This document shows positions 2,182-41,022 of a stretch of DNA of 41,022 nucleotides, in pieces. How positions within the stretch are numbered: position 1 is the first letter of the stretch; every line of letters begins with the position of its first letter. The stretch covers positions 1-41,022 of the IMG/VR virus record IMGVR_UViG_3300049629_000326, one strand, 5' to 3'. Under the pieces are notes generated by a model that worked only from the letters and a program-made list of their open reading frames with translations, was not told the DNA's origin and did no database searches. The stretch comes from a virus. Made by a program: the position numbers and the translations under genes.

Positions 2182-3264
2182 ATGAAGATCGCGGTGTACA
2201 CCATCGCCAAGAACGAAGAACGGCACGTCGGACGCTGGGCACACTCCTGCCAGGACGCTGACTACAGGCTCATCCTTGACACAGGATCAACCGACAACAC
2301 AGTCAATATTGCCCGCTACTTCAACGTGCCGGTAGAGCGCAAAGTCTTCAACCCGTGGAGATTCGACCACGCTCGCAACCACGCCCTCGGTCTGTTGCCC
2401 GACGATGTTGATCTGTGTATTGCCCTGGACATGGACGAGGTGCTACTAGAGGGATGGCGCGACCACCTCGAACAGGTGCCGAACGGCACAACCCGCCCCC
2501 GTTACAAATATGTGTGGAGCTGGAATGACGACGGCTCAGAAGGGTTGGTCTACGGGGGCGACAAGATCCACGCCCGACACGGATACAGATGGAAGCACCC
2601 CGTACATGAAGTCATTCAACCTGTGGAGATACTGGAACAGCAGTACTGGTGTGATGGCCTAGAGATCCACCATCACCCCGACCCGACCAAGTCGCGCGGA
2701 CAGTACTTTGACCTCCTGAAACTAGCCGTCGAGGAATCACCCAGGGACGACAGAAACCAGTTCTACCTGGCCCGCGAATACTTCTTCCACGGCAACTACT
2801 CCTTGGCGCAGTATCACTTCAGCGAGTTTCTGCGTCTCTCGATGTGGGCACCCGAACGGGCTGCCGCGTACAGGTACATGGCGATCATGCGCCCCGCCGT
2901 GAAGGAATCCCTGCTGTACAAAGCAGTCATGGAAGACCCGCGCCGGCGGGAAACATGGTTTGCCCTTGCCCAGTTCTATTACGGCAACGAGGACTGGCAT
3001 AGCGTCAAGGCTGCCTGTGTGATGCTCTTCCGGGTCGCAGAGAAACCGTTGGACTATCTGTGCGAGGCAGACGCCTGGGGTTGGCAGCCCCATGATCTGA
3101 TGGCGTTGGCGTCATGGAATCTCGGGGAGTACGACCAGGCTGTGATGCATGGGGAACGGGCCTTGGCGGTGCGCCCCGACGACCTCAGACTGAAGAAGAA
3201 CCTGGAATGGTACTATTCCAAGGTTCCGCAGATCGAGAGGATCAACAATGTCAGCCAAGGGTGA
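2182..3264 (+). CDS. Family 2 glycosyltransferase with C-terminal helical (TPR-like) repeats
   Basis: The first 90 residues have the GT-A fold signature: IAVYTIAKNEERHVGRW, with the nucleotide-sugar NEE at 11-13; LILDTGSTDNTVNIA at 31-44; and an acidic DMDE at 83-86 in the DxD position expected to bind the metal and the nucleotide sugar. From about residue 180 the protein is helical with TPR-like spacing (FYLAREYFFHGNYSLAQYHF; MALASWNLGEYDQAVMHGERAL). GT2-TPR proteins typically transfer sugars to proteins or surface polymers. The SD is AGGAGGGGAC. The gene lies in the fibre cluster, so virion glycosylation is a reasonable inference. The acceptor is unknown. A second GT lies at 37858. Confidence 0.88.
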   Translation: MKIAVYTIAKNEERHVGRWAHSCQDADYRLILDTGSTDNTVNIARYFNVPVERKVFNPWRFDHARNHALGLLPDDVDLCIALDMDEVLLEGWRDHLEQVPNGTTRPRYKYVWSWNDDGSEGLVYGGDKIHARHGYRWKHPVHEVIQPVEILEQQYWCDGLEIHHHPDPTKSRGQYFDLLKLAVEESPRDDRNQFYLAREYFFHGNYSLAQYHFSEFLRLSMWAPERAAAYRYMAIMRPAVKESLLYKAVMEDPRRRETWFALAQFYYGNEDWHSVKAACVMLFRVAEKPLDYLCEADAWGWQPHDLMALASWNLGEYDQAVMHGERALAVRPDDLRLKKNLEWYYSKVPQIERINNVSQG

Positions 3265-20258: not shown

Positions 20259-21304
20259 TGAACCGCTACGGCACCCCGCATGAGTTCATGCCCGACGACC
20301 TCTCAGAGCACGCGCTAGTGCTCGCGTTCGATTTCGAAGATGACCACGAGGTGACGCCCGCCGCGCTCGCGGCGCGCAACGCGTCGCGGCTGCTCGACCT
20401 GCACGCCGCAGGCATCGACTGCCTCGACCAGGACCCCGCCGCAATCGACTGGGAGACACTCGAGGCCCGCGCCAACCGCGCCGGACACGACACGTACAAC
20501 AGCGACACGCGTTGGGAACTGTACGCAGGCAGCATCACCTGCAGCGACGACTGCACCGAAGAGTGCAGCCCCCGCCCGTCCCGCGTGCGCGTGTCGGCCG
20601 ACATGGCAGACCCGCACGGAATCGCTCGCCCGTCTCGCGTCGACCGTGCCCGCGCATGGCTCACCGACATGGCCGACTACCTCGACCGCATCGACAGCGA
20701 CAGCGACGACGTCGACACCGACGCGCTCGAGACGCTCGAGGACGCGCTACGCGTGCTCGAGGCCGCCGACACCCTCGAGCCGTGCGAACACGGCCACCAA
20801 GAATGCAGCACCGAGCCGCGGGGCCGGTGCACGAACGAGGCCGCCGACCTGACCGACAGGTGCGAGGACTGCCGCGAAGCCGACGTGACCGAGTACGGCT
20901 GCCCGTTCGCGCTGCACACCGGCGAACGTCTGTGCCTCGACTGCTGCGGCTGCCCGGACCACGTCGAAGAGTCCCACGATCAGAACGCGGCCACCCCGGC
21001 CACGGCCACGGCCACGGATCAAGAGACACCCGGCGAGGCCCGCGCCTACCGCGTCACGTTCACCCTGGGCACCACCTACGAAACCACCGTGAACGCCCGC
21101 ACCGCAGCCGAAGCCGCCGCACTCATCGAGGGACTCGACGAAGACGACGCCGACGAAATCGAGGTGAGCCGCGAAGTGCTCGGCGCGCAGCCGGTGCACT
21201 ACTGCGACGCGTGCGGCGAAGAGATGACCACCGGCGACGAGGCCACGTGCGGCGACTGTGTCCGCTACCTGACCCGGACCACCGACCAGGACGGCCAGCC
21301 GTGA
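20258..21304 (+). CDS. Acidic cysteine-rich protein with zinc-finger motifs, 348 aa
   Basis: Start at the ATG that overlaps the GP88-like stop. Residues 1-170 are helical and acidic. Several clusters of paired cysteines follow: CSDDCTEEC, CEHGHQEC, RCEDCREAD, CLDCCGCPDH. A final Cys4 knuckle reads YCDACGEEMTTGDEATCGDC. A beta/alpha segment (RAYRVTFTLGTTYETTVNAR) sits between. Multiple zinc sites suggest a nucleic-acid or protein binding role, but I do not recognise the family. The gene shares the extreme GC bias of its neighbour. Confidence 0.65.
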   Translation: MNRYGTPHEFMPDDLSEHALVLAFDFEDDHEVTPAALAARNASRLLDLHAAGIDCLDQDPAAIDWETLEARANRAGHDTYNSDTRWELYAGSITCSDDCTEECSPRPSRVRVSADMADPHGIARPSRVDRARAWLTDMADYLDRIDSDSDDVDTDALETLEDALRVLEAADTLEPCEHGHQECSTEPRGRCTNEAADLTDRCEDCREADVTEYGCPFALHTGERLCLDCCGCPDHVEESHDQNAATPATATATDQETPGEARAYRVTFTLGTTYETTVNARTAAEAAALIEGLDEDDADEIEVSREVLGAQPVHYCDACGEEMTTGDEATCGDCVRYLTRTTDQDGQP

Positions 21305-21444
21305 CCGCGGCAACGCTCGCAGCCGTGACGCTCGCCCCGTCCTGCATCGCGAACCCGCACGCGTTCACCGACGGCCTCACCCTGGGCGCGCTCACCACCC
21401 TGGCCGCACTCGCGCTCGCAGCCTGGAGAACCCGCCGCCGATAG
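21301..21444 (+). CDS. Small hydrophobic peptide, 47 aa
   Basis: GTG overlapping the preceding stop (GTGA). A hydrophobic segment (LTLGALTTLAALALAAW) ends in RTRRR, like a single-pass membrane peptide. Function is unknown. It closes the GC-rich block. Confidence 0.45.
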   Translation: MTAATLAAVTLAPSCIANPHAFTDGLTLGALTTLAALALAAWRTRRR

Positions 21445-21488
21445 AACCCCACAACCCAACCCCGCCCAACGCGGCCCCGTCGAGCACC

Positions 21489-21581
21489 ACGCCGGCGGGG
21501 CCGCTCCCATTCCCGGACCAACGCCGGCCGGAGCACGCCGGCAGCCCCGTGCACAACGCCCAGCCGGAGCACAACGCCGGC
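21489..21581. repeat. Four short ACGCCGGC repeats, iteron-like
   Basis: ACGCCGGC occurs at 21489, 21521, 21535 and 21574. Three copies carry GAGCAC just before them, giving GAGCAC(CA or A)ACGCCGGC variants. Spacing is irregular (32, 14 and 39 bases), so a protein-binding array such as an origin is possible but not proven. Confidence 0.5.
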
Positions 21582-21864
21582 CGAGTCACACCCATTTCGT
21601 CGATGACGAAACCCCCCCGCACCCAACACCCACACCCACCACCAACGGCCCGCAGAACGCACCACAACGCGCCAAACCAGCACCCAGCACGCAGCCACAG
21701 CACATTGCTAGGCGGCCGGATGCCGCGCGCGCACCAGTTCCGGAAGGCACCCGGGTTGAGGGAACGAGGCCAGCGCGGGCCAGGAACCAGCCGAGCACGA
21801 CCCCGAACCCACGGCCCCGAACCCCACCCCCACCGAAAAACTCGCGACCGGGAGTCTGCCGCCT

Positions 21865-21878
21865 CCCCGGGCCCGGGG
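21865..21878. repeat. 14-bp perfect palindrome at the composition switch
   Basis: CCCCGGGCCCGGGG is its own reverse complement. It sits about 12 bases before the sequence changes from C/A-rich to G/T-rich. It could be a dimeric protein site; as RNA it has no loop. Confidence 0.7.
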
Positions 21879-22343
21879 GAAGTACATTAGTTGTTCTGTC
21901 GGGTGTCACTCTTTGGCGGTGGTTTGGCGGGGTGTTGTTGTGTGCGGCTGTGGTGTGTGGTTGTGTGACCAACCCGAGCGGAGCGAGGGGCGGTAGCCCA
22001 ACCGGAGGGCGGGAGTCGAGAGCTGGTGGGTTGTGTGCCTCCCCCACGTTTCATCATCGTTTTGATGATCGGTGGCCGTGGCTAGTTTGAGCCGACACCG
22101 TTGCGACTGGTTGTCTTGCCCGAGGTGACGTTCGGGTGCGCTGCTTGATCCTCTTATGCGCTAGGGGAAGGACGGTCGTGGTTACTTCTTGAGTGCAGGG
22201 ATCATCTACCCCAGTTCCCTGGTGTCATCTGCCAGCAGAGTGCAATCCCCTACGTGACCGTGCGTGCCCTGGCGTCTCCCGACGCGGGGGTCTTGTTCGG
22301 TTGCGGGCCGCAGGTTAGCAGGTTGGTGTGTTACTTTGTTGGG

Positions 22344-22676
22344 ATGGCAGCAAAGAAGAAGTCGAGTTCTGCGAAGCCGGCGAAGAAGAAGTCGGGTGCG
22401 GAGAATGATCCGGTGCTGAAGAAGCACGCGATCAATGAGGCGAAGAAGGCTGCGGCCAAGTATCAGTCGTCGCCGATGAATCGGGCGCAGGTGATTCAGC
22501 CTGCTGGGAAGAGCTACACGCCGGATCAGCCCGAGTTCTTCACGAAGACGAAGGGCCGCGCTCGGGCGATGACTCAGGTGTACACGAACCGGTACAACGA
22601 GGTGATCAAGGAGTTGGATCGTTTGTCTGCGAAGCGGATGCCTATCAAGCGGGCAAAGCTGCGGGGGAAGGTCTGA
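22344..22676 (+). CDS. Lysine-rich small protein, 110 aa
   Basis: ATG chosen at MAAKKKSSS. The N-terminal 35 residues are Lys/Ala/Ser-rich and probably disordered, and the rest is helical (TQVYTNRYNEVIKELDRLSA). No good Shine-Dalgarno is seen; TTACTT lies seven bases upstream. It is the first gene of the packaging cluster. A DNA- or virion-associated role is guessed from charge and position. Confidence 0.65.
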   Translation: MAAKKKSSSAKPAKKKSGAENDPVLKKHAINEAKKAAAKYQSSPMNRAQVIQPAGKSYTPDQPEFFTKTKGRARAMTQVYTNRYNEVIKELDRLSAKRMPIKRAKLRGKV

Positions 22677-23084: not shown

Positions 23085-25064
23085 ATGGGTACTAAACGAG
23101 TCGTTCCGGCGCGCGATGTTGCGCTGTATTGGCAGTCCCGCGCCTCGGGGATGTCTATGGCTGACGCGGCCCGTGTGGCTGGCATACACAAGAACACCGC
23201 CTCTAAGTGGGAAGCGAAGAAGAAGGCTGCTGTCGCGAACGACGCCCTCGCCCAGCTTGAGGAGAAGGTCACCTCATCGAAGCGGTCAGGTGGGGCACGC
23301 GCCACCCTGGTCGCGGACCTGCTCGAAGGATCAAACCTTCCCCCTGTCATCCCCGATGACCGTCTCTGCCCTGAAGCTCAACGCGGCCTTCAGGACTTCG
23401 ACTTCTTCCGCAGGTACTACCTGGGGCGTGTCCCCAGCCCCTGGCAGGTGGACGCCGCCTACAAGATCGTCGAGCTGCTCGAATCCGAAGACAAAGAACA
23501 CCTCGTCGTGAACGTCGCCCCGGGCGCAGGAAAGTCAACCCTGTTCCACGACGTGGCCGTGTGGTGCATCGTCCGCAACCGGGCAATCCGTGTCCTCTAC
23601 GGATCCGTGTCCCTTGCGCTCGCCAAGATGTACTCGCGCCGAATCCGTGAAACCCTGGAACGCCCCGTCCCGATCCAACCCGACCCCGAACTGGTACGCA
23701 AAGGACTCGCTGTCAACGCCGAAGGATGCTTGGCTGTGGATTATGGCCGTTTCAGACCCTCAGATAAAGGAGCTTTGTGGCGGGCCGAAGAGTTCATTGT
23801 TGAACAACACTCCCAGTCAGGGCTTGACAACAAGGAACCAACCGTCCGCGCCTACGGTTTCGACTCAGAGTTCATCGGCCACCGCGCGGACCTGGTGCTG
23901 TTCGACGACGTAGCGTCCCCTGAGAACAGCAAAGAGTCCACAGCCCGCGACCGTCTGCTGGAACGGTGGGACTCAATGGCTGAAGCCCGTGTTGACCCGG
24001 GTGGTCTGCTCGCTGTTATTGGTCAGAGGCTCGGATCCCAGGACCTGTACGCGCATTGCCTCTCCAAAGAGACGTTCGAGGACCTGGATGACCTGTACGA
24101 CGGGTCAGATGTGACCGGCACCGACTCCGACACCACGGTCGAGCCGCTCCGAATCAAGAAATACAAGCAGCTGGTGTACAAGGCGTACTACGAAGACCTC
24201 GACACAGGCCCCGAATCGCGCAGAAAGTTCGCCAAACCGTGGCCGGAAGGCCCTCTGTTGGACCCGTTTCGCCTGTCCTGGCAGGATCTGTCGTTCATCA
24301 GGCATTCCAGTCCGCAGAAGTTCAAGGTTGTGTACCAACAGGAAGACCTGGACATGGACAACGCCCTCATTGAGCGGGTGTGGGCCACCGGTGGGTTGGG
24401 TCCCGACGGGGTTCTGTACCCAGGATGCATAGATAACGACCGCCAACCAGGGCATATCCCCCCGGGGCTGGAACATCCGATTATTTCTGTGTGTTCTATT
24501 GACCCGTCCCCCACCCAGTTTTGGGCGATCGAGTGGTGGTTGTACCAACCTGAGACAAACCTGCGGTATTTGATCGATATTGAGCGCAGGAAACTGACAG
24601 CTGAGGAACTTCTCGGGTATGACGTGTCAACCCGTGAGTATTCGGGGGTCATGGAGGAATGGCAGAACAGGTCCGACCGAATGGGCTACCCGATAACCCA
24701 TTGGATTGTGGAGATCAACGCCGCCCAGCGGTTCCTGCTGGCGCACAACTTTGTCCGAACCTGGCAGGCATTGAACGAGACAGCGGTGGTTCCCCACACC
24801 ACATCCCGCAACAAGCTGGACGAACACATGGGTGTCGAAGCCCTGCTTCCCCCGCTGTGGAGGTCAGGTTCAGTCAGGCTTCCGACGATGCGCGGCAACT
24901 ACAAGACGATGATCTTCGTTGACGAGATGTGCAGTTGGCACCGGCAGAAGAAGCACAACACCGACACCGTCATGGCTCATTGGTTCGCCGAACTCCATAT
25001 GCCTGACTTGACCGAACCTGTCGCGGCCCCTAGAATGTGGCGTCCTTCGTGGCTAGCCGTGTAA
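23085..25064 (+). CDS. terL: Terminase large subunit with N-terminal helix-turn-helix
   Basis: 659 aa. Walker A is APGAGKST at 145-152 and Walker B is DLVLFDDV at 269-276, giving the packaging ATPase. The C-terminal nuclease (RNase-H-like) shows D473 in SIDPSPTQFWAI, E543 in WIVEINAAQRFL and D627 in NTDTVMAHWFAE. Residues 9-45 (DVALYWQSRASGMSMADAAR, VAGIHKNTASKW) look like an HTH normally found in the small subunit. No separate small terminase gene is obvious. It powers DNA translocation into the procapsid and cuts the concatemer. Confidence 0.93.
   Translation: MGTKRVVPARDVALYWQSRASGMSMADAARVAGIHKNTASKWEAKKKAAVANDALAQLEEKVTSSKRSGGARATLVADLLEGSNLPPVIPDDRLCPEAQRGLQDFDFFRRYYLGRVPSPWQVDAAYKIVELLESEDKEHLVVNVAPGAGKSTLFHDVAVWCIVRNRAIRVLYGSVSLALAKMYSRRIRETLERPVPIQPDPELVRKGLAVNAEGCLAVDYGRFRPSDKGALWRAEEFIVEQHSQSGLDNKEPTVRAYGFDSEFIGHRADLVLFDDVASPENSKESTARDRLLERWDSMAEARVDPGGLLAVIGQRLGSQDLYAHCLSKETFEDLDDLYDGSDVTGTDSDTTVEPLRIKKYKQLVYKAYYEDLDTGPESRRKFAKPWPEGPLLDPFRLSWQDLSFIRHSSPQKFKVVYQQEDLDMDNALIERVWATGGLGPDGVLYPGCIDNDRQPGHIPPGLEHPIISVCSIDPSPTQFWAIEWWLYQPETNLRYLIDIERRKLTAEELLGYDVSTREYSGVMEEWQNRSDRMGYPITHWIVEINAAQRFLLAHNFVRTWQALNETAVVPHTTSRNKLDEHMGVEALLPPLWRSGSVRLPTMRGNYKTMIFVDEMCSWHRQKKHNTDTVMAHWFAELHMPDLTEPVAAPRMWRPSWLAV
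25008..25036 (+). promoter_or_regulatory. Promoter of the portal/structural operon
   Basis: TTGACC, 17 bases, TAGAAT (5 of 6 at both). It lies inside the 3' end of the terminase gene, preceded by GAC as at 11921 and 16904. The predicted start near 25043 leaves a leader of about 58 bases before the portal. It is the best sigma-A-like promoter I see in this genome. Confidence 0.75.
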
Positions 25065-26852: not shown

Positions 26853-27244
26853 TGGCGTACGGTAACCGCACGGATCTGAACAGCCCTGCCGAGAAGGTGG
26901 CGAAGAGGACCGCACCAGGGCAGACCTACGGGAAGGCTGCCGAACAGATGCGCGCCCAACAGGCTGTCCCGATGGCACGGTCAGCAGCTGACGCACCTTC
27001 CCAGGTTCCTGCAGGCCCCGCTCCCGGGGGTTTGGGTGACTTTGCCCGCCCGACGGAACGGCCGCAAGAACCGATCACCGCTGGTGTCGACTTCGGTCCT
27101 GGCATGAACGCGATTCAGGCCGGCGTCAACAGGACGCTCCGCACCGATGACCCTGTTCTCGATCGCATCCAGCAGTTGTTTGCGATGTACCCGAACGAGG
27201 ATCTTGCTGATCTGCTTGACAGTTACGTCAAAGACGGGTTCTGA
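26852..27244 (+). CDS. Hypothetical protein after portal, 130 aa
   Basis: GTG overlapping the portal stop by one base. The first 80 residues are Pro/Ala/Gln-rich and disordered; the last 45 are helical and acidic (DDPVLDRIQQLFAMYPNEDL). It may be a small virion protein; I do not recognise it. Confidence 0.6.
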   Translation: MAYGNRTDLNSPAEKVAKRTAPGQTYGKAAEQMRAQQAVPMARSAADAPSQVPAGPAPGGLGDFARPTERPQEPITAGVDFGPGMNAIQAGVNRTLRTDDPVLDRIQQLFAMYPNEDLADLLDSYVKDGF

Positions 27245-30200
27245 TGCCGTTCTACGATTACCGTGACGAACCCGAAATGTTGCGCGACGCTGCGATGCGT
27301 GCGAAACCACAGTCAAAGACGGCGCAGGATGCGCTCGTAGCCAAGAGGCTGGGAGATATATACGGTCGTCATCCGTATATGCAGGCGGGTGTGGCGTTGT
27401 CGTTGGCTGAAGCCGGCGCGGACATGGCGATGGTTGACCAGGTAGCGAACAAGTCAGCGATGGTCGGCATGGAGAAGGCGCGCGGGGCTGCCGCAGGGGC
27501 GAACGAAACGGATGAGACCCCGTTCGAGTTCAAGGAGGGGATCAAGGGGAAACTGACACGGAACCTGGGCGGTCTTATCGGCAAGGTCGCGTCTCCTGTC
27601 GGTAAGAGTTTGTCGTGGCTGGGTGGCAACACGTTGGGTCGTAGTTCGAAACTGAAGACCGCGTCCAGGTGGGCGGTTGCTGGGTTGCAGTTCCCCGCTG
27701 AATACATCGCCAACTACGGTTCGTTGGTTACCGACCCGGACGAGGAAGCCAAGCGTGCGACTGCAAGCAGCAGGTGGACCCTTCCGACGAATATGTTTGC
27801 GTCAACGTCGCTGGGTGCGATGCTTCAGCACGGTGACGATTCGGGTGAGGGATTCTTTGTCGGTGGCGAAGCAGAGAAGAAGCGTGTCGAGAAGGTCAAG
27901 AAGTTTCGTTGGCAGGTCAACGGAGAGTCCTACACGGTCGGTCGCGGTACGGCCAACATGGTTGCGACTCCAGGGTCTGAGTCATACAAGTTTATTTCGG
28001 GCCTGATTGACGGAGCGATCGGTTTCTTTGCTGATCCAAGCAATGTCGCAGGCAAAACTTTGAAGGGTGTCAAGGCTGCCCGGGCGGCAGTACCCGTGAT
28101 TCAGTCAGCAGACGAGATCGCAGCCGCCAGCAAGATGGCGAAGGGGGCTGCCGGTCTGCTGTCAACGGCTGAACAGCACGCAATCGATACCAGCAAGTTC
28201 TTCAACTGGTTGGACAACAGCAAGTTCGGTCAGCGCATCGTCACGAAAGCAACCGACGAAACCGACGCATACCGAATGCTGGAAGCGTTTGACTTCCGTA
28301 TCAGCGTGGACGACGCGAAGCGTCTTGCTGATGCACGGACAACCGACGAAGTCCGGGGGATCATCGGCGAGGCAGCAACCCGCCTCAAGGACGAGACGGA
28401 ACAGGGCATGGTTCCGTTTGCGACGGACGCCCGCCAGCTGCCGATCACAAAGAAGATTCCCGCGTACCGGCTGCGCGCAAACAGCAGGTGGTTGAGCAAG
28501 GTCCCCGACCAGCGGCTGATTGTTCATGGAACCCCCGAGGAACGCATCAAGGCTGTCAAGAATGTCGGCAACTATCTGAAGACAATCAAGGTTGACCCCT
28601 ACAGCGGGGACGGCAAGAAGCTGATGGATGCAGCTATCGAGGCGTTCTCGGAGAACGGGACACGCGTCAACGCCGATGTTGTTGCCCGCACGTTCCTGGG
28701 TGACCCGTCACGCGGTCTCAAGGGGATCGTCCACATGGCCCTTGAATCCGCTGGGCAGGAAGCCCAGGTCATTGACGACGTCCTGGAGCAGTTCCGGTCG
28801 GGTCTGCAAACGCTTCGCAAGTATGCGACAGATTCCGCAGGTCTGACTGATGACAACGGTTTCATGGTCCACATGACACAGTTCATGGACGACGACGAGT
28901 TGTATCAGTTGTTGAAGGAGATCCACCCGACAAAGATCAACCCGACGATGTCCCGCCTCGATCTTGATGACGTTGTGGCGAACCTTGAACCCGGGGAACT
29001 GAGCGTTCACGGGCCGATGGCGTTGTCGCAAATGCTGAACAACGTCGTCATCCTGCCTGATCCGAACGAACTGCGCCGAATGACCACCAACCCGTTCTTC
29101 CGTGTGACAAAGGACGGAAAGCAGCTGGCGGCAACAAAGTTGTTGACTTACCTCCAGCAGGAGGTGTGGAGGCCGTATGCGCTGATGAGTGTCGGCTACA
29201 TGGTTAGAAACACGATGGATGCCACGATGCGTCTCGGTCTGCACGGCTACCTGTCCAACCCGATTGACTACATCTTGATGGGTCTCGGCAGGCGCGGACT
29301 GGGAACTGTGAACCAGGGTGAACTGTGGTCCGAAGCCGGCGAGGCAGCCAACCAGTTCACGGACGTTGCCGACTTCAACCGTTGGATGCGGCGGTCTTCC
29401 CAGCACCTGTCTGATGATCCCGCCAAGAGCGTCGCCCACTTGATCAAGACCGATCAGGTTGCCGTGCTGGAACCGTCTGATCTTGCGTACGGCCAGGGCC
29501 TGGTTGACAACGGGAGGCTGATTCATGCATCCCCGGAACTGCGTTTCTACGCGCAGATCATGCATCTTCCGATCGACAGACAGCACCAACTGTTTGTCAA
29601 GTGGCTGGACCAAGCAACCCCTGAATCGCGCATCGCCCGAAAGACAATCGTGGATTACCTGATCGATGGTCCGGTCGTGGCGAACCGCAACAACGGGCGT
29701 GTTCGTAGTGTCGGGAGGGTACGCAACGCAGAAACCATGACCACCGACGAACTCGTTGAGGCATGGTTTGAGAAGGGCGGCGCGCCCCAAGTTGACAACT
29801 TCACACAAGGAACGGACGAACTGAGGGCCGTGGTCGCTTACAACGATGTGCCGATCGCGCCGTCCGAGATATGGGACGAGTCAATGGTGGCAAGCAAGTC
29901 GGTGACACCAGGTCGTTCCAAGCCTGGTGACCTTCTCGTCGAGGATATAACGATTGACCCCTTGGATCCTCAGTTCAACTATTGGCGAATCCTCGAAGTA
30001 GAGACGCTTCCCGGTCTCAGGGGTGGGACAAGAAAGTCGTTCAAGGTCATTCCTGTCACCGATCCTGGTGCCGCAATGGCTGATGACGCTGGTTCGCCGG
30101 CGATGAACGCGTTCATCAGGGACCTGTTGGAGCAGAACGCAGCCCGCAATCCCGCTGATCCGATGCGTCTTCCCGCGCGAGTCATGGGCCGTGTCCGTAC

Positions 30201-32112
30201 GAAGCAGGCAGAAACAATCCAGGGTGTGTCGGAAGGAGCGGCCGCAGCTGCCAGGGCTGTGGCTACACCTGCACGTTGGTTCTTTGAGAATGTTGTGAGC
30301 AACTGGGAGCGGGCAATCGACAAGTCGCCAGCATTCAAGATGGCGTATTACAGGGCCGTCGCCGAGAATGCCCGACTGCTCACTCCTGCTGAAGCCGATC
30401 TGCTGATGCAGAACATCGATGATTTCGCTAAGGCTCGCCTGCCGAAACTGCACGCCAGGAATCCTGAGAAGGCTCGCGCCACCTGGATGGGCGGCAAGGA
30501 GAACTACGACGACCTCAAGGCCGCTGTTGACGAAGCCAAGACGAGAGGGGACGGTGTCGGCACGGTGCAGCAGTTGCAGGATTATTCGTCCACCCGCGCC
30601 CGCCGTGACTTGGAAGATCTGTTCTTCCAAAGCGTTGAGAAGAGCAACATTGCCGAAGCAACACAGTTGATTGCCCCGTTCGGTGCCGCCTGGGCGAACA
30701 TTGTCGGCAGGTACAGCCGTGAACTGATCGAGAACCCGTTCCGTGTCCGCAAGGCACAGCTCGTCTACCGGGGTCTCGAGCAGGCTGACCCCGACCAGGA
30801 TGGACGCGGATACATTTGGAAAGACCCGACCACAGGTCAGATGAAGTTCACGTTCCCGTTCTCGGGACAGGTCATCAACGCCGTGACGGGCATCCCGGGG
30901 ATATCAATGGCCGCCCCCGTAAGCAGGTTGTCGGCAGGGTTCTCGGCGATCCCCGCGTTCGGTCCGATGGTGCAGATAGCCGCTAGCGACGTGTTCGACA
31001 GGTTTGCCGTGCCAGGGCTAGATGAGTTCCGCAGATTTGTGACGCCGTTCGGCGACGTCGGGTTGAAGTCGATGGTCCCAGGATCTCTTCAGAAGGCGTT
31101 CTCTGCCCTGGCTGACAGCCCTGACAGGCTTGAAACAATGTACGGCAACACCTACAACGACGTGTTCGCCCATTTGTCAGCATCAGGCGAATACGACCTG
31201 ACGGATTCCAATGAACGCAACCGCTTGAACACAGACGCAAAGATGAAAGCACGCTACATCGCGATGATCAGGGCCATTGGACAGTTTGTTGGACCCACCG
31301 CTCCGTCTCCCGACTATAGGTTCAAGACTGGATCGGGTCAGTATTACTTCACGTCAGAAATGATCAACTGGTATCGCGACGAACAGGCCAAGAACTACGA
31401 CACCGCAGTTGGGAACTTCCTTGATAAGTTCGGCGACCAACCGTTGATCTACACCGCCGGCAAAACCGAGGTCATGGAACCGTACGCAGGTATTGACGCC
31501 ACAGAACAGTTCCAGCGTTGGGAAAGGGAGAACGCTGATCTGCTGCGGGACCACAAGGAAACAGCAGGGTATCTCGCCCCTGGCGGCACCGAAGCTGACT
31601 TCTCGATGCCCGTGTGGTCACGTCAGATTGCGGCAGGAATGCGCCGCCGTATAGACCCAATGGACCGATTGGCTGTTGCCCAGTACACGGTCGCGGCTGC
31701 TGAGATGCGTGCCCGCCGCAAGGAATACGGTCCGGATATCACCTCAGGTGAGCGGGCAGCCTTGAAAGAGTACCGTCAAGAACTGGTGGAGAAGTACCCA
31801 GGGTTCGTCACGGCTGCTTCGTTTGACACCAAGGGGTTCGACAATATGTTGCTGAACCTGCGCGAGTTGATGGCTGATCCCCGGACTGAAGGTAACTCCG
31901 TGGTGGCATCAGCAGCCAAGTATCTCAGGCTTCGCGATCAGGCTGCCTTGGAACTTGAGGAGGAAGAGGGTGTCACCCTGAGGGCCGACAAGAATGCTCG
32001 TGCTGTCCAGCTGAAGAACTTTCTGTATTCCTACGGGGAGGAGTTGGCCGCCAAGAATCCTGACTTTAGTAGGCTTTGGCAGCGCGAACTTTCAGCAGAG
32101 GTTGAGGACTGA
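27244..32112 (+). CDS. Giant internal virion protein, ejection-protein candidate
   Basis: 1622 aa, the largest gene (12% of the genome). It is mostly helical, with a predicted disordered/amphipathic start and hydrophobic stretches typical of membrane-penetrating proteins (ISGLIDGAIGFFADPS; LIAPFGAAWANIVG; GQVINAVTGIPGISMAAPVS). I see no peptidase or lysozyme motif. In a short-tailed phage, very long proteins after the portal are usually internal core proteins ejected into the cell to extend the tail. It takes the place of a tape measure. Assignment is by size, position and composition. Confidence 0.6.
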   Translation: MPFYDYRDEPEMLRDAAMRAKPQSKTAQDALVAKRLGDIYGRHPYMQAGVALSLAEAGADMAMVDQVANKSAMVGMEKARGAAAGANETDETPFEFKEGIKGKLTRNLGGLIGKVASPVGKSLSWLGGNTLGRSSKLKTASRWAVAGLQFPAEYIANYGSLVTDPDEEAKRATASSRWTLPTNMFASTSLGAMLQHGDDSGEGFFVGGEAEKKRVEKVKKFRWQVNGESYTVGRGTANMVATPGSESYKFISGLIDGAIGFFADPSNVAGKTLKGVKAARAAVPVIQSADEIAAASKMAKGAAGLLSTAEQHAIDTSKFFNWLDNSKFGQRIVTKATDETDAYRMLEAFDFRISVDDAKRLADARTTDEVRGIIGEAATRLKDETEQGMVPFATDARQLPITKKIPAYRLRANSRWLSKVPDQRLIVHGTPEERIKAVKNVGNYLKTIKVDPYSGDGKKLMDAAIEAFSENGTRVNADVVARTFLGDPSRGLKGIVHMALESAGQEAQVIDDVLEQFRSGLQTLRKYATDSAGLTDDNGFMVHMTQFMDDDELYQLLKEIHPTKINPTMSRLDLDDVVANLEPGELSVHGPMALSQMLNNVVILPDPNELRRMTTNPFFRVTKDGKQLAATKLLTYLQQEVWRPYALMSVGYMVRNTMDATMRLGLHGYLSNPIDYILMGLGRRGLGTVNQGELWSEAGEAANQFTDVADFNRWMRRSSQHLSDDPAKSVAHLIKTDQVAVLEPSDLAYGQGLVDNGRLIHASPELRFYAQIMHLPIDRQHQLFVKWLDQATPESRIARKTIVDYLIDGPVVANRNNGRVRSVGRVRNAETMTTDELVEAWFEKGGAPQVDNFTQGTDELRAVVAYNDVPIAPSEIWDESMVASKSVTPGRSKPGDLLVEDITIDPLDPQFNYWRILEVETLPGLRGGTRKSFKVIPVTDPGAAMADDAGSPAMNAFIRDLLEQNAARNPADPMRLPARVMGRVRTKQAETIQGVSEGAAAAARAVATPARWFFENVVSNWERAIDKSPAFKMAYYRAVAENARLLTPAEADLLMQNIDDFAKARLPKLHARNPEKARATWMGGKENYDDLKAAVDEAKTRGDGVGTVQQLQDYSSTRARRDLEDLFFQSVEKSNIAEATQLIAPFGAAWANIVGRYSRELIENPFRVRKAQLVYRGLEQADPDQDGRGYIWKDPTTGQMKFTFPFSGQVINAVTGIPGISMAAPVSRLSAGFSAIPAFGPMVQIAASDVFDRFAVPGLDEFRRFVTPFGDVGLKSMVPGSLQKAFSALADSPDRLETMYGNTYNDVFAHLSASGEYDLTDSNERNRLNTDAKMKARYIAMIRAIGQFVGPTAPSPDYRFKTGSGQYYFTSEMINWYRDEQAKNYDTAVGNFLDKFGDQPLIYTAGKTEVMEPYAGIDATEQFQRWERENADLLRDHKETAGYLAPGGTEADFSMPVWSRQIAAGMRRRIDPMDRLAVAQYTVAAAEMRARRKEYGPDITSGERAALKEYRQELVEKYPGFVTAASFDTKGFDNMLLNLRELMADPRTEGNSVVASAAKYLRLRDQAALELEEEEGVTLRADKNARAVQLKNFLYSYGEELAAKNPDFSRLWQRELSAEVED

Positions 32113-37575: not shown

Positions 37576-37847
37576 GCATCGAATATCGCGGTGAGAAGTT
37601 CGCGGGATACAACAAGCCGAAGCGCACCCCAGGACACCCGAAGAAGTCCCATGCCGTCCTCGCCAAAGAAGGATCAACAGTCAAGTTGATTCGGTTCGGG
37701 CAGCAGGGTGTGTCGGGTTCCCCCAAGAAGGCCGGCGAGTCGGCGGCGTATCGCAATCGTCGCGAATCGTTCAAGGCTCGTCATGCGTCGAACATCAAGA
37801 AGGGCAAGATGTCGGCGGCCTACTGGGCCGACAAGACGAAGTGGTGA
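37572..37847 (+). CDS. DUF5872-like small basic virion protein, 91 aa
   Basis: Overlaps the preceding gene by four bases. The order VKLIRFGQQGVSGSPKK, then RRESFKARHASN, then MSAAYWADKTKW matches a small basic protein (KxIRFG...RRxSFxARH...YWxxKxxW) widespread in cyanophages, pelagiphages and others (DUF5872-like). A structural or DNA-contact role is likely but unproven. Confidence 0.7.
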   Translation: MSIEYRGEKFAGYNKPKRTPGHPKKSHAVLAKEGSTVKLIRFGQQGVSGSPKKAGESAAYRNRRESFKARHASNIKKGKMSAAYWADKTKW

Positions 37848-37857
37848 TCCAGGGTCC

Positions 37858-38961
37858 GTGAACTATCAACATTGGGACGGCGTCCAGGACCCGAGGTTCG
37901 GGTACGGGGCGATGTTGGAGGGGTTCGTCAAACATTCGCCAAAGTCCGTCAAACTGGACGAAAGATCGTCCGTACACGTCCACATGGGCATACCCCAATC
38001 ACGCGATACATGGCTCCGGGGACAGCACAGAGTGCTGTTCACCATGTGGGAAACCGACGTCCTTCCGCGTGCCTTCAGAACCTGGACATCCCTCTACGAC
38101 CAAGTGCTGGTTCCCTGTGATCACAACAACGAACTGTTTCGCCGCCATCACCATGACGTGACTACCGTCCCCCTGGGTGTCGACAGGACCGTGTGGTCGC
38201 CGCAAGGAAGGCCCAACAACAAAGTGTTTCGGTTCCACGCGGGCGGCTCGCTGTGGAGACGCAAGGGTCTTGACGTAGTAGTCAGGGCGTTCAACCGTCT
38301 CAAGTTGCCGAACGCGGAGCTGCACATCAAGGCTGCTCCTCACGCGCTGGACGTGCCCAAGGGTGAACTTGGCGACAACATCATTCTCAACCGGGAGTGG
38401 ATGACCCTGGAGGAGCAGGTTGACTGGTATGCCCAGGCAGACTGTTTCATAGCTGCGTCGCGCGGCGAAGGTTTCGGCCTGATGCCGTTGCAGGCGATCT
38501 CAATGGGGATTCCCACAATCCTGTCCGATTCAACCGGCCAGCAACAGTTCAAACACCTAGCGACGGGTGTGGTTCCCTGTTCAAAGACCCCGGCAGTCGG
38601 TGGAGGGAAATGGGACGAACCCAACGAGAACGCCCTGTGCGAACTGATGATGGACCACTACGACGTCAACCCGATCGACACGGCCAGGGTGAACGCTGAC
38701 CGTACAGAAGACTTCTCCTGGGCCAATGCGACCAAGAAACTGTTGGCGGCTGTCCCGGTGGGTCGCCTGATTCCTGGCTCTGCCGAAACAATCAAGGATC
38801 AACCCCAAATAGAGGTTCTGATGACGCGCACCGTGTCCCCCCACATAGGCGGGAAGAACTACAACTTCGTGAAGGGGCAGCGGTACACAATCAACGACGG
38901 CCTGCACCAAGTCCTCTATGACGCCAAAGTCATTGAAGACGGCCCGTGGGCAAAGTGTTAG
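37858..38961 (+). CDS. GT-B glycosyltransferase (GT4-like)
   Basis: 367 aa from GTG, ten bases after the upstream stop. The GT-B signature is clear: HAGGSLWRRKGLDVVVRAFN at 127-146 and SRGEGFGLMPLQAISMGIPT at 201-220 containing the ExGFG nucleotide-sugar motif, with TVPLGVDRTVW before it. The last 60 residues form an extra domain (KNYNFVKGQRYTINDGLHQV). It transfers an activated sugar to an unknown acceptor. Being just upstream of the fibre genes and paired with the GT2 gene on the other side suggests virion glycosylation. Confidence 0.88.
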   Translation: MNYQHWDGVQDPRFGYGAMLEGFVKHSPKSVKLDERSSVHVHMGIPQSRDTWLRGQHRVLFTMWETDVLPRAFRTWTSLYDQVLVPCDHNNELFRRHHHDVTTVPLGVDRTVWSPQGRPNNKVFRFHAGGSLWRRKGLDVVVRAFNRLKLPNAELHIKAAPHALDVPKGELGDNIILNREWMTLEEQVDWYAQADCFIAASRGEGFGLMPLQAISMGIPTILSDSTGQQQFKHLATGVVPCSKTPAVGGGKWDEPNENALCELMMDHYDVNPIDTARVNADRTEDFSWANATKKLLAAVPVGRLIPGSAETIKDQPQIEVLMTRTVSPHIGGKNYNFVKGQRYTINDGLHQVLYDAKVIEDGPWAKC

Positions 38962-40749: not shown

Positions 40750-41022
40750 TGCCCATACGTCGGGGATTCTTTGGCGGGTTCGTCAGTCAGGCACCTGACG
40801 CGACAGCCAACGCTGTCACCAACTTCAACCAGGATCGGGCCACGTTCAACGCAACGGTGTCATGGAATCTGTACCCGACAACTGTCTACTTTGACTACAG
40901 CACCAGCTCGACGTTTGCGACGTACTCAACCACCACCTACGGTTCAACAGTCTCAGCACAGTCGTCGTCCGTCTATGTGAACGTCACGGGTCTGACGGTC
41001 GGAACTACCTACTATGTGCGAG
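40749..41022 (+). CDS. 5' part of the poly-glycine adhesin gene (continues at base 1)
   Basis: ATG inside the TAATG overlap with the collagen-like gene. It encodes MPIRRGFFGGFVSQAPDATA and the first part of an fn3-like domain (NFNQDRATFNATVSWN). The frame is open to the window end and, since 40896-41022 equals 1-127, continues in phase into the 1-1059 segment, giving a complete 401-aa protein. See the other entry for domains. Confidence 0.9.
40896..41022. repeat. Terminal direct repeat, right copy (circular overlap)
   Basis: Identical to bases 1-127, including the in-frame codons of the adhesin. It marks the closure of the circle, not a second locus. Confidence 0.95.

Follow-up and report, generated by a model that had tools for sequence, protein, structure and literature searches.

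A conserved structured RNA at the boundary of early and late genes in probable actinobacteriophages

Large conserved phage RNAs that do not encode proteins are few and mostly unexplained. The pRNA of phage phi29 belongs to one type of ATPase, and the put RNA of phage HK022 is a short, cis-acting element in early leaders. GOLLD and ROOL are large, ornate RNAs of phages and prophages with unknown function; one ROOL example has a length of 659 nt, many GOLLD RNAs exceed 800 nt, and they are often found near tRNA islands (PMC12286853). The locus analyzed here is the gap between the early and the late genes of an environmental phage, and its right half almost certainly holds an RNA family that is conserved, non-coding, covarying, and built of several helices.

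The window is the whole record IMGVR_UViG_3300049629_000326 with a length of 41,022 bases. Its first and last 127 bases (1-127 and 40896-41022) are identical, and thus, the record represents a circular assembly of 40,895 bp. All assigned genes are carried by the plus strand. Terminase, portal, and capsid genes are located on the late side from 23085 onward, the tail genes and the probable lysis genes span the cut point and reach about 10060, and the early side, with genes for an exonuclease, a RecE-like protein, an annealing protein, and SSB, follows and extends to the gap. Two glycosyltransferase-like genes lie among the late and tail genes (2182-3264 and 37708-38961). A protein of 1622 aa (27244-32112), which gave no match in PHROG or Pfam, is kept in relatives between the portal and capsid genes. 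Among 50,697 phage records, neither megablast nor blastn found a match. By the major capsid protein, the nearest cultured relatives, with about 40% identity, are the Streptomyces Beephvirinae and the 'Ca. Planktophila' phages E7 (LanE43-AprE7, record OX376640) and F5 (PMC10202952). As Streptomyces Beephvirinae and E7 are the nearest cultured capsid relatives, an actinobacterial host is likely, and the RNA-bearing phages probably infect actinobacteria.

The sequence-only reading had described positions 21445-22343 as a large intergenic region that divides the early from the late genes, and this was confirmed. The last early frame stops at 21444, the late ATG is located at 22344, and the gap separates genes for recombination and SSB from those for terminase, portal, and capsid. 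The flanking genes are:

21302..21444, plus strand: probable last early ORF, read from the sequence, 47 aa from a GTG, with one hydrophobic stretch; a family search with longer frames around it gave no match
22344..22676, plus strand: first late ORF, 110 aa, ATG at 22344, no family match
23085..25064, plus strand: terminase large subunit, phrog_38

A conserved coding gene within the gap had been named as the observation that would speak against this description. It was rejected because, isolated rows excepted, no frame is open throughout the conserved part in the relatives. The proposed switch in strand composition is also real, and it is the sharpest in the circular genome. The difference in C+A content between the 400 nt to the left and the 300 nt to the right peaks at 0.358 at position 21850 and is 0.34 at 21885, compared with 0.191 at best elsewhere in the circular genome. 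The local switch from C-rich to G-rich is present in most relatives. In the window, the sequence to the left of the switch is nearly free of T (51 C, 32 A, 16 G, and 1 T at 21601-21700), and to the right, G and T prevail (46 G and 27 T at 21901-22000). A C-rich, G-poor, and almost T-free composition is expected of a Rho-utilization site, and by this composition, the left half of the gap looks like a Rho-type terminator that ends the early operon:

21445..21849, plus strand: stretch rich in C and A and poor in T; by its composition, a candidate for a Rho-type (rut) terminator that ends the early operon

The switch can be read as the C-rich end of the early operon to the left of a putative RNA promoter, followed by the start of a G/U-rich RNA to the right.

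Two smaller features had been pointed out in the gap. The perfect 14-bp palindrome CCCCGGGCCCGGGG at 21865-21878 exists, but it is neither conserved nor rare and was rejected as a functional core. The window contains three perfect palindromes of at least 14 nt, one of them 16 nt long, and therefore, a palindrome of this size carries little weight. Upstream of the terminase large subunit (TerL) gene of the loci L049, L050, and L077, a perfect palindrome, ATAAAAATTTTTAT, is found shortly past the start of the first late ORF. The four ACGCCGGC repeats are likewise present at 21489, 21521, 21535, and 21574, that is, four words in 93 bases (21489-21581), and the word is over-represented in the whole genome (17 copies, 3.5 expected). 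However, the cluster is absent from the relatives, and a role as iterons was therefore rejected.

On the right side of the gap, a possible hairpin-bearing RNA had been suspected and a comparison with related phages suggested. The suspicion was borne out, and the RNA turned out to be far more elaborate. For the comparison, 80 IMG/VR loci were collected via the terminase protein. A by-eye comparison of this genome with locus L006 first revealed a conserved non-coding stretch. Iterated nhmmer searches found the RNA in 68 of 81 TerL-carrying sequences, always on the plus strand and upstream of the terminase gene. The core begins with an invariant CCCCCACG, and the stems of its short hairpins vary in sequence while pairing is kept. 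The covariance model R1, which was built from the relatives only and excluded the window, matches the window at 22041-22258 with 68.9 bits and an E-value of 5.8e-20, R1 E-values being rough. The parts of the RNA are:

21895..22040, plus strand: G/U-rich 5' part; its beginning, GTCACTCTTT (21905-21914), is conserved and the remainder variable
22041..22258, plus strand: conserved structured core with the invariant CCCCCACG at its start, defined by model R1 and covariation
22053-22058 with 22064-22069, plus strand: helix HA, double changes in 6 of 6 pairs
22071-22073 (GGT) with 22097-22099 (ACC), plus strand: helix HB, invariant in alignment A3, one double change in alignment A1
22119-22123 with 22132-22136, plus strand: helix HC, double changes in 4 of 5 pairs
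22146-22151 with 22199-22204, plus strand: helix HD, 98.7% of cells paired, double changes; encloses HD2
22158-22162 with 22192-22196, plus strand: helix HD2, 91.2% of cells paired, double changes
22211..22222, plus strand: helix HE (CCAG-UUCC-CUGG), 100% paired, covarying in both alignments
22223..22258, plus strand: region of helix HF, for which the relatives give good support; the variant of this genome is divergent and pairs poorly
22265..22295, plus strand: 3' hairpin HG, terminator-like without a U run; 22 distinct sequences with changing stems

The helices were scored in two plain MAFFT alignments. In A1, which was made from sequence only with 23 relatives and without the window, nine helix segments were scored. 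Of the predicted pair cells, 93.0% were paired compared with 71.8% after shuffling, and compensatory double changes were found in 22 of 29 pairs. The covariation score was 0.576, whereas it was 0.188 (sd 0.014) after shuffling and at most 0.106 when the structure was slid by 1-3 columns. The second alignment, A3, represents another subtype, that of the window, with 25 sequences: 92.5% of the cells were paired (about 72% after shuffling), 22 of 35 pairs had double changes, and the score was 0.510, compared with 0.136 (sd 0.012) for shuffled and at most 0.127 for slid structures. The slide control is somewhat favored because the structures were read from the same alignments, but in our judgment, this bias counts for less than the magnitude of the difference and the independent search with the model. 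RNAalifold, run unguided, recovered HB, HD, HE, and HF. Folding of the single window sequence was no better than that of shuffled sequences (z -0.19). A Shine-Dalgarno pairing by the C-rich stretch and a loop-loop kissing interaction, both considered by eye, were not supported. In summary, the compensatory base changes exceed the controls, as expected of a structured non-coding RNA.

The sequences around the RNA suggest how it might be transcribed. Alignment of 76 distinct upstream blocks revealed the element GGGGGTNTGCC, followed after about 22-27 nt by a TATNNATNA-like box and a conserved putative transcript start. The corresponding elements of the window, and a further box in front of the late genes, are:

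21850..21860, plus strand: upstream element GGGAGTCTGCC, a copy of the conserved GGGGGTNTGCC of the putative RNA promoter
21865..21878, no strand: palindrome CCCCGGGCCCGGGG, part of the spacer that separates the upstream element from the -10-like box
21883..21888, plus strand: -10-like box TACATT of the putative RNA promoter, from the block alignment; the transcript would start near 21895
22332..22337, plus strand: -10-like box TACTTT, separated by 6 nt from the start codon of the first late ORF

As the promoter parts of the window lie at 21850-21860 and 21883-21888, the palindrome is promoter spacer; inverted repeats in this spacer are modestly enriched in the relatives (15 of 68, 4.3 after shuffling). 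In 42 of 89 relatives, compared with 12.8 after shuffling, the first late ATG is preceded by a TANNNT motif whose end is 4-11 nt away, and the putative late promoter at 22332-22337 is apparently leaderless, as in leaderless actinobacterial mRNAs. With a promoter-like block before the RNA and a -10-like box after it, the RNA would form its own transcription unit, and a separate transcript from an RNA gene of its own seems the likely arrangement.

The distribution of the RNA did not follow one type of phage. With an exact pattern of the 5' domain, matches were obtained in at least 120 IMG/VR stretches, and a scan of 84,980 prokaryote genomes gave none. R1 matches 80 of 80 loci kept from the pattern scan, although such scans select for the pattern and IMG/VR contigs are non-independent samples. 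Wherever the downstream DNA suffices, the terminase gene follows the RNA or, in six loci (L082, L084, L088, L103, L111, and L132), a different phage lineage is found. In this second lineage, L088 encodes a phrog_979-type terminase, a phrog_156 portal, a phrog_14242 capsid, and a WhiB regulator, and L111 has the same ORF sizes in the same order. Across the RNA carriers, the terminases belong to phrog_38 and phrog_979/phrog_2. The RNA is thus common to two phage lineages with unrelated terminases, portals, and capsids, and a tie to one terminase was rejected. In a third set (32 stretches by pattern), the promoter block is kept and the RNA has diverged. This type II RNA follows the same block, its sequence (AGCCCCCCCAAGTTCTGTTTTACG...GGTCCCCTTTTCAGGCCAC) is highly conserved, and it is found upstream of TerL in L034, L039, L040, L038, L033, L032, L036, L023, L055, L041, L056, L028, L022, L025, and L074. 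It is probably a diverged relative of the main RNA, with which it has helix HE in common. L013 contains the promoter block with no RNA behind it, and therefore, the RNA is not essential in every member. No copy was detectable in the cultured phages E7, Streptomyces phage Zeigle (minus 5.2 kb of its right end), and Vibaki. Rfam 15 gave nothing above the gathering threshold, and a relaxed cmscan search with E-values up to 5 gave no match for the window, L034, L016, and L132 and only sub-threshold, chance-level matches for L087, and no description of the RNA was found in a literature search of partial coverage.

Part of the group has a second, short form of the RNA of about 119 nt, which consists of an HB-like hairpin, HD, HE, and HF. 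It starts 3-16 nt past the stop codon of a holin-like (lysis) gene, and a conserved early promoter (TTGCAACNTGTGT..TATAGT) follows it. Two examples are:

L087, 801-919: short second copy
L131, 13003-13121, minus strand: short second copy

Searches of full records revealed a second copy in eight phages, the pattern of the short copy matches 57 stretches, and in G035, a second copy that has diverged occupies the same position, with lysis genes on one side and early genes on the other. Many phages have a single copy only, and no second copy was found at the lysis/early junction of the window with filters off. The distance of 3-16 nt from the lysis gene stop codon indicates that the second copy is probably part of the 3' end of the late mRNA and lacks a promoter of its own. 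The short form also provides a minimal core with a length of about 120 nt, which is amenable to synthesis and testing.

Taken together, the explanation that we prefer, with a probability of roughly 0.5, is an RNA gene at the early-late boundary that encodes a regulatory RNA acting in trans. In this phage, the gene would be about 400 nt long, from the putative start near 21895 to the end of the 3' hairpin at 22295. The C/A-rich left half would provide a Rho-dependent end of the early operon, and the RNA unit would be switched on at the early-to-late boundary. The RNA, alone as a regulator or in a ribonucleoprotein, could then help in trans to switch from early or host expression to late expression. 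Its partner might be something common to actinobacterial hosts and not one packaging motor. Since the RNA occurs in two lineages whose packaging and capsid proteins are unrelated, a partner from the host or from the transcription or translation apparatus is the more likely of the two. This trans-acting control of the early-late switch is the least certain part of the explanation and is proposed tentatively. Still more speculative is the general view that unrelated lineages of actinobacterial phages have a new trans-acting RNA family in common. Such an RNA might redirect a machine of the host or of the phage when early expression gives way to late expression; its full copy is located at the early-late junction, and some phages have an additional short copy where the late genes meet the early genes.

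The main rival is a cis-acting leader, which we regard as unlikely, but which has to be taken seriously. The RNA would be a 5' leader of the late operon that modifies RNA polymerase for processive antitermination, like the HK022 put RNA, or that attenuates transcription, so that this operon of about 20 kb is read through. In every context seen, the RNA is promoter-proximal and ahead of a long operon, and the genomes with two copies, which make up part of the group, are reminiscent of the duplicated put and nut sites; put RNA is cis-acting while it is part of the nascent transcript (PMC9378689). However, a separate -10-like box directly precedes the first late gene, the second copy lies behind a lysis gene and ahead of the early promoter instead of inside the early leader, and the RNA is much larger than put.

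A DNA-level element is very improbable. The composition switch had been proposed to mark a replication origin, a terminus, or a packaging site, and the RNA might then be a replication primer or a by-product. In this genome, the sharpness of the switch and the cumulative GC skew, with its minimum at 21868 and its maximum about half a genome away, are in agreement with this proposal. However, when 18 near-complete genomes were compared, only 7 had their global skew minimum at a distance of about 320 nt or less from the RNA, and therefore, an origin or terminus is not supported, and an origin deduced from skew was rejected as inconsistent among relatives. Overlaps of 127 or 123 nt are typical assembly k-mer sizes. 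The end overlaps of the circular relatives are mostly 127 or 123 nt and their contigs are cut at scattered places, so that no fixed genome end is apparent, and the identical 127 bases of the window are probably a k-mer overlap and no true terminal repeat. Furthermore, the compensatory changes across the helices require that a single strand pairs with itself, in contrast to duplex DNA. The gap is not best read as an origin, a terminus, or a packaging site. Equally improbable is a terminator or insulator function, by which structured RNAs at both operon junctions would stop transcription from circling the genome. Both copies do separate operons that are opposite in timing and share one strand, and a 3' hairpin is present, but a terminator would require far less length and sequence conservation than the RNA has, the hairpin has no U run, and many phages have only one copy. 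A part in a phi29-like DNA-packaging motor, encoded beside the terminase gene, has the least chance of being correct: wherever the flank is long enough, the RNA does precede the module with terminase and portal, but phages with unrelated terminases and portals share it, Rfam yields no match, the second copy sits behind lysis genes, and the RNA is absent behind the promoter block in L013.

The RNA can be compared with the described systems in several respects. Like phi29 pRNA, it is a phage RNA encoded beside morphogenesis functions, but it is common to unrelated terminases; no match to an Rfam model was found in the window, and the carriers of the RNA have phrog_38 and phrog_979/phrog_2 terminases and not the phi29-type packaging ATPase. 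As the lineages that share the RNA differ in their packaging and capsid proteins, it is separate from any one packaging machine. Similarly to HK022 put, it is a structured element near a putative promoter at the head of phage operons, with two sites per genome in part of the group, but here, the RNA has a second putative promoter downstream of it, and its second copy is found after lysis genes. With GOLLD and ROOL it shares the elaborate, covarying structure of a phage RNA. However, it is smaller (about 250-430 nt), it is located at the early-late junction, and it matches no Rfam model, those of GOLLD and ROOL included. A search of the window for tRNAs and tmRNAs found none, and thus, it does not have the tRNA-island location of GOLLD and ROOL. 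The RNA has a wide distribution among environmental phages, has no entry in Rfam 15, and is tied to a precise point of the infection program, the operon junctions, and it is a concrete target for learning how these phages use it. In summary, large structured phage RNAs are a known kind, and by the Rfam test, the present RNA is a separate family, with a different genomic address and the two-copy arrangement in some phages.
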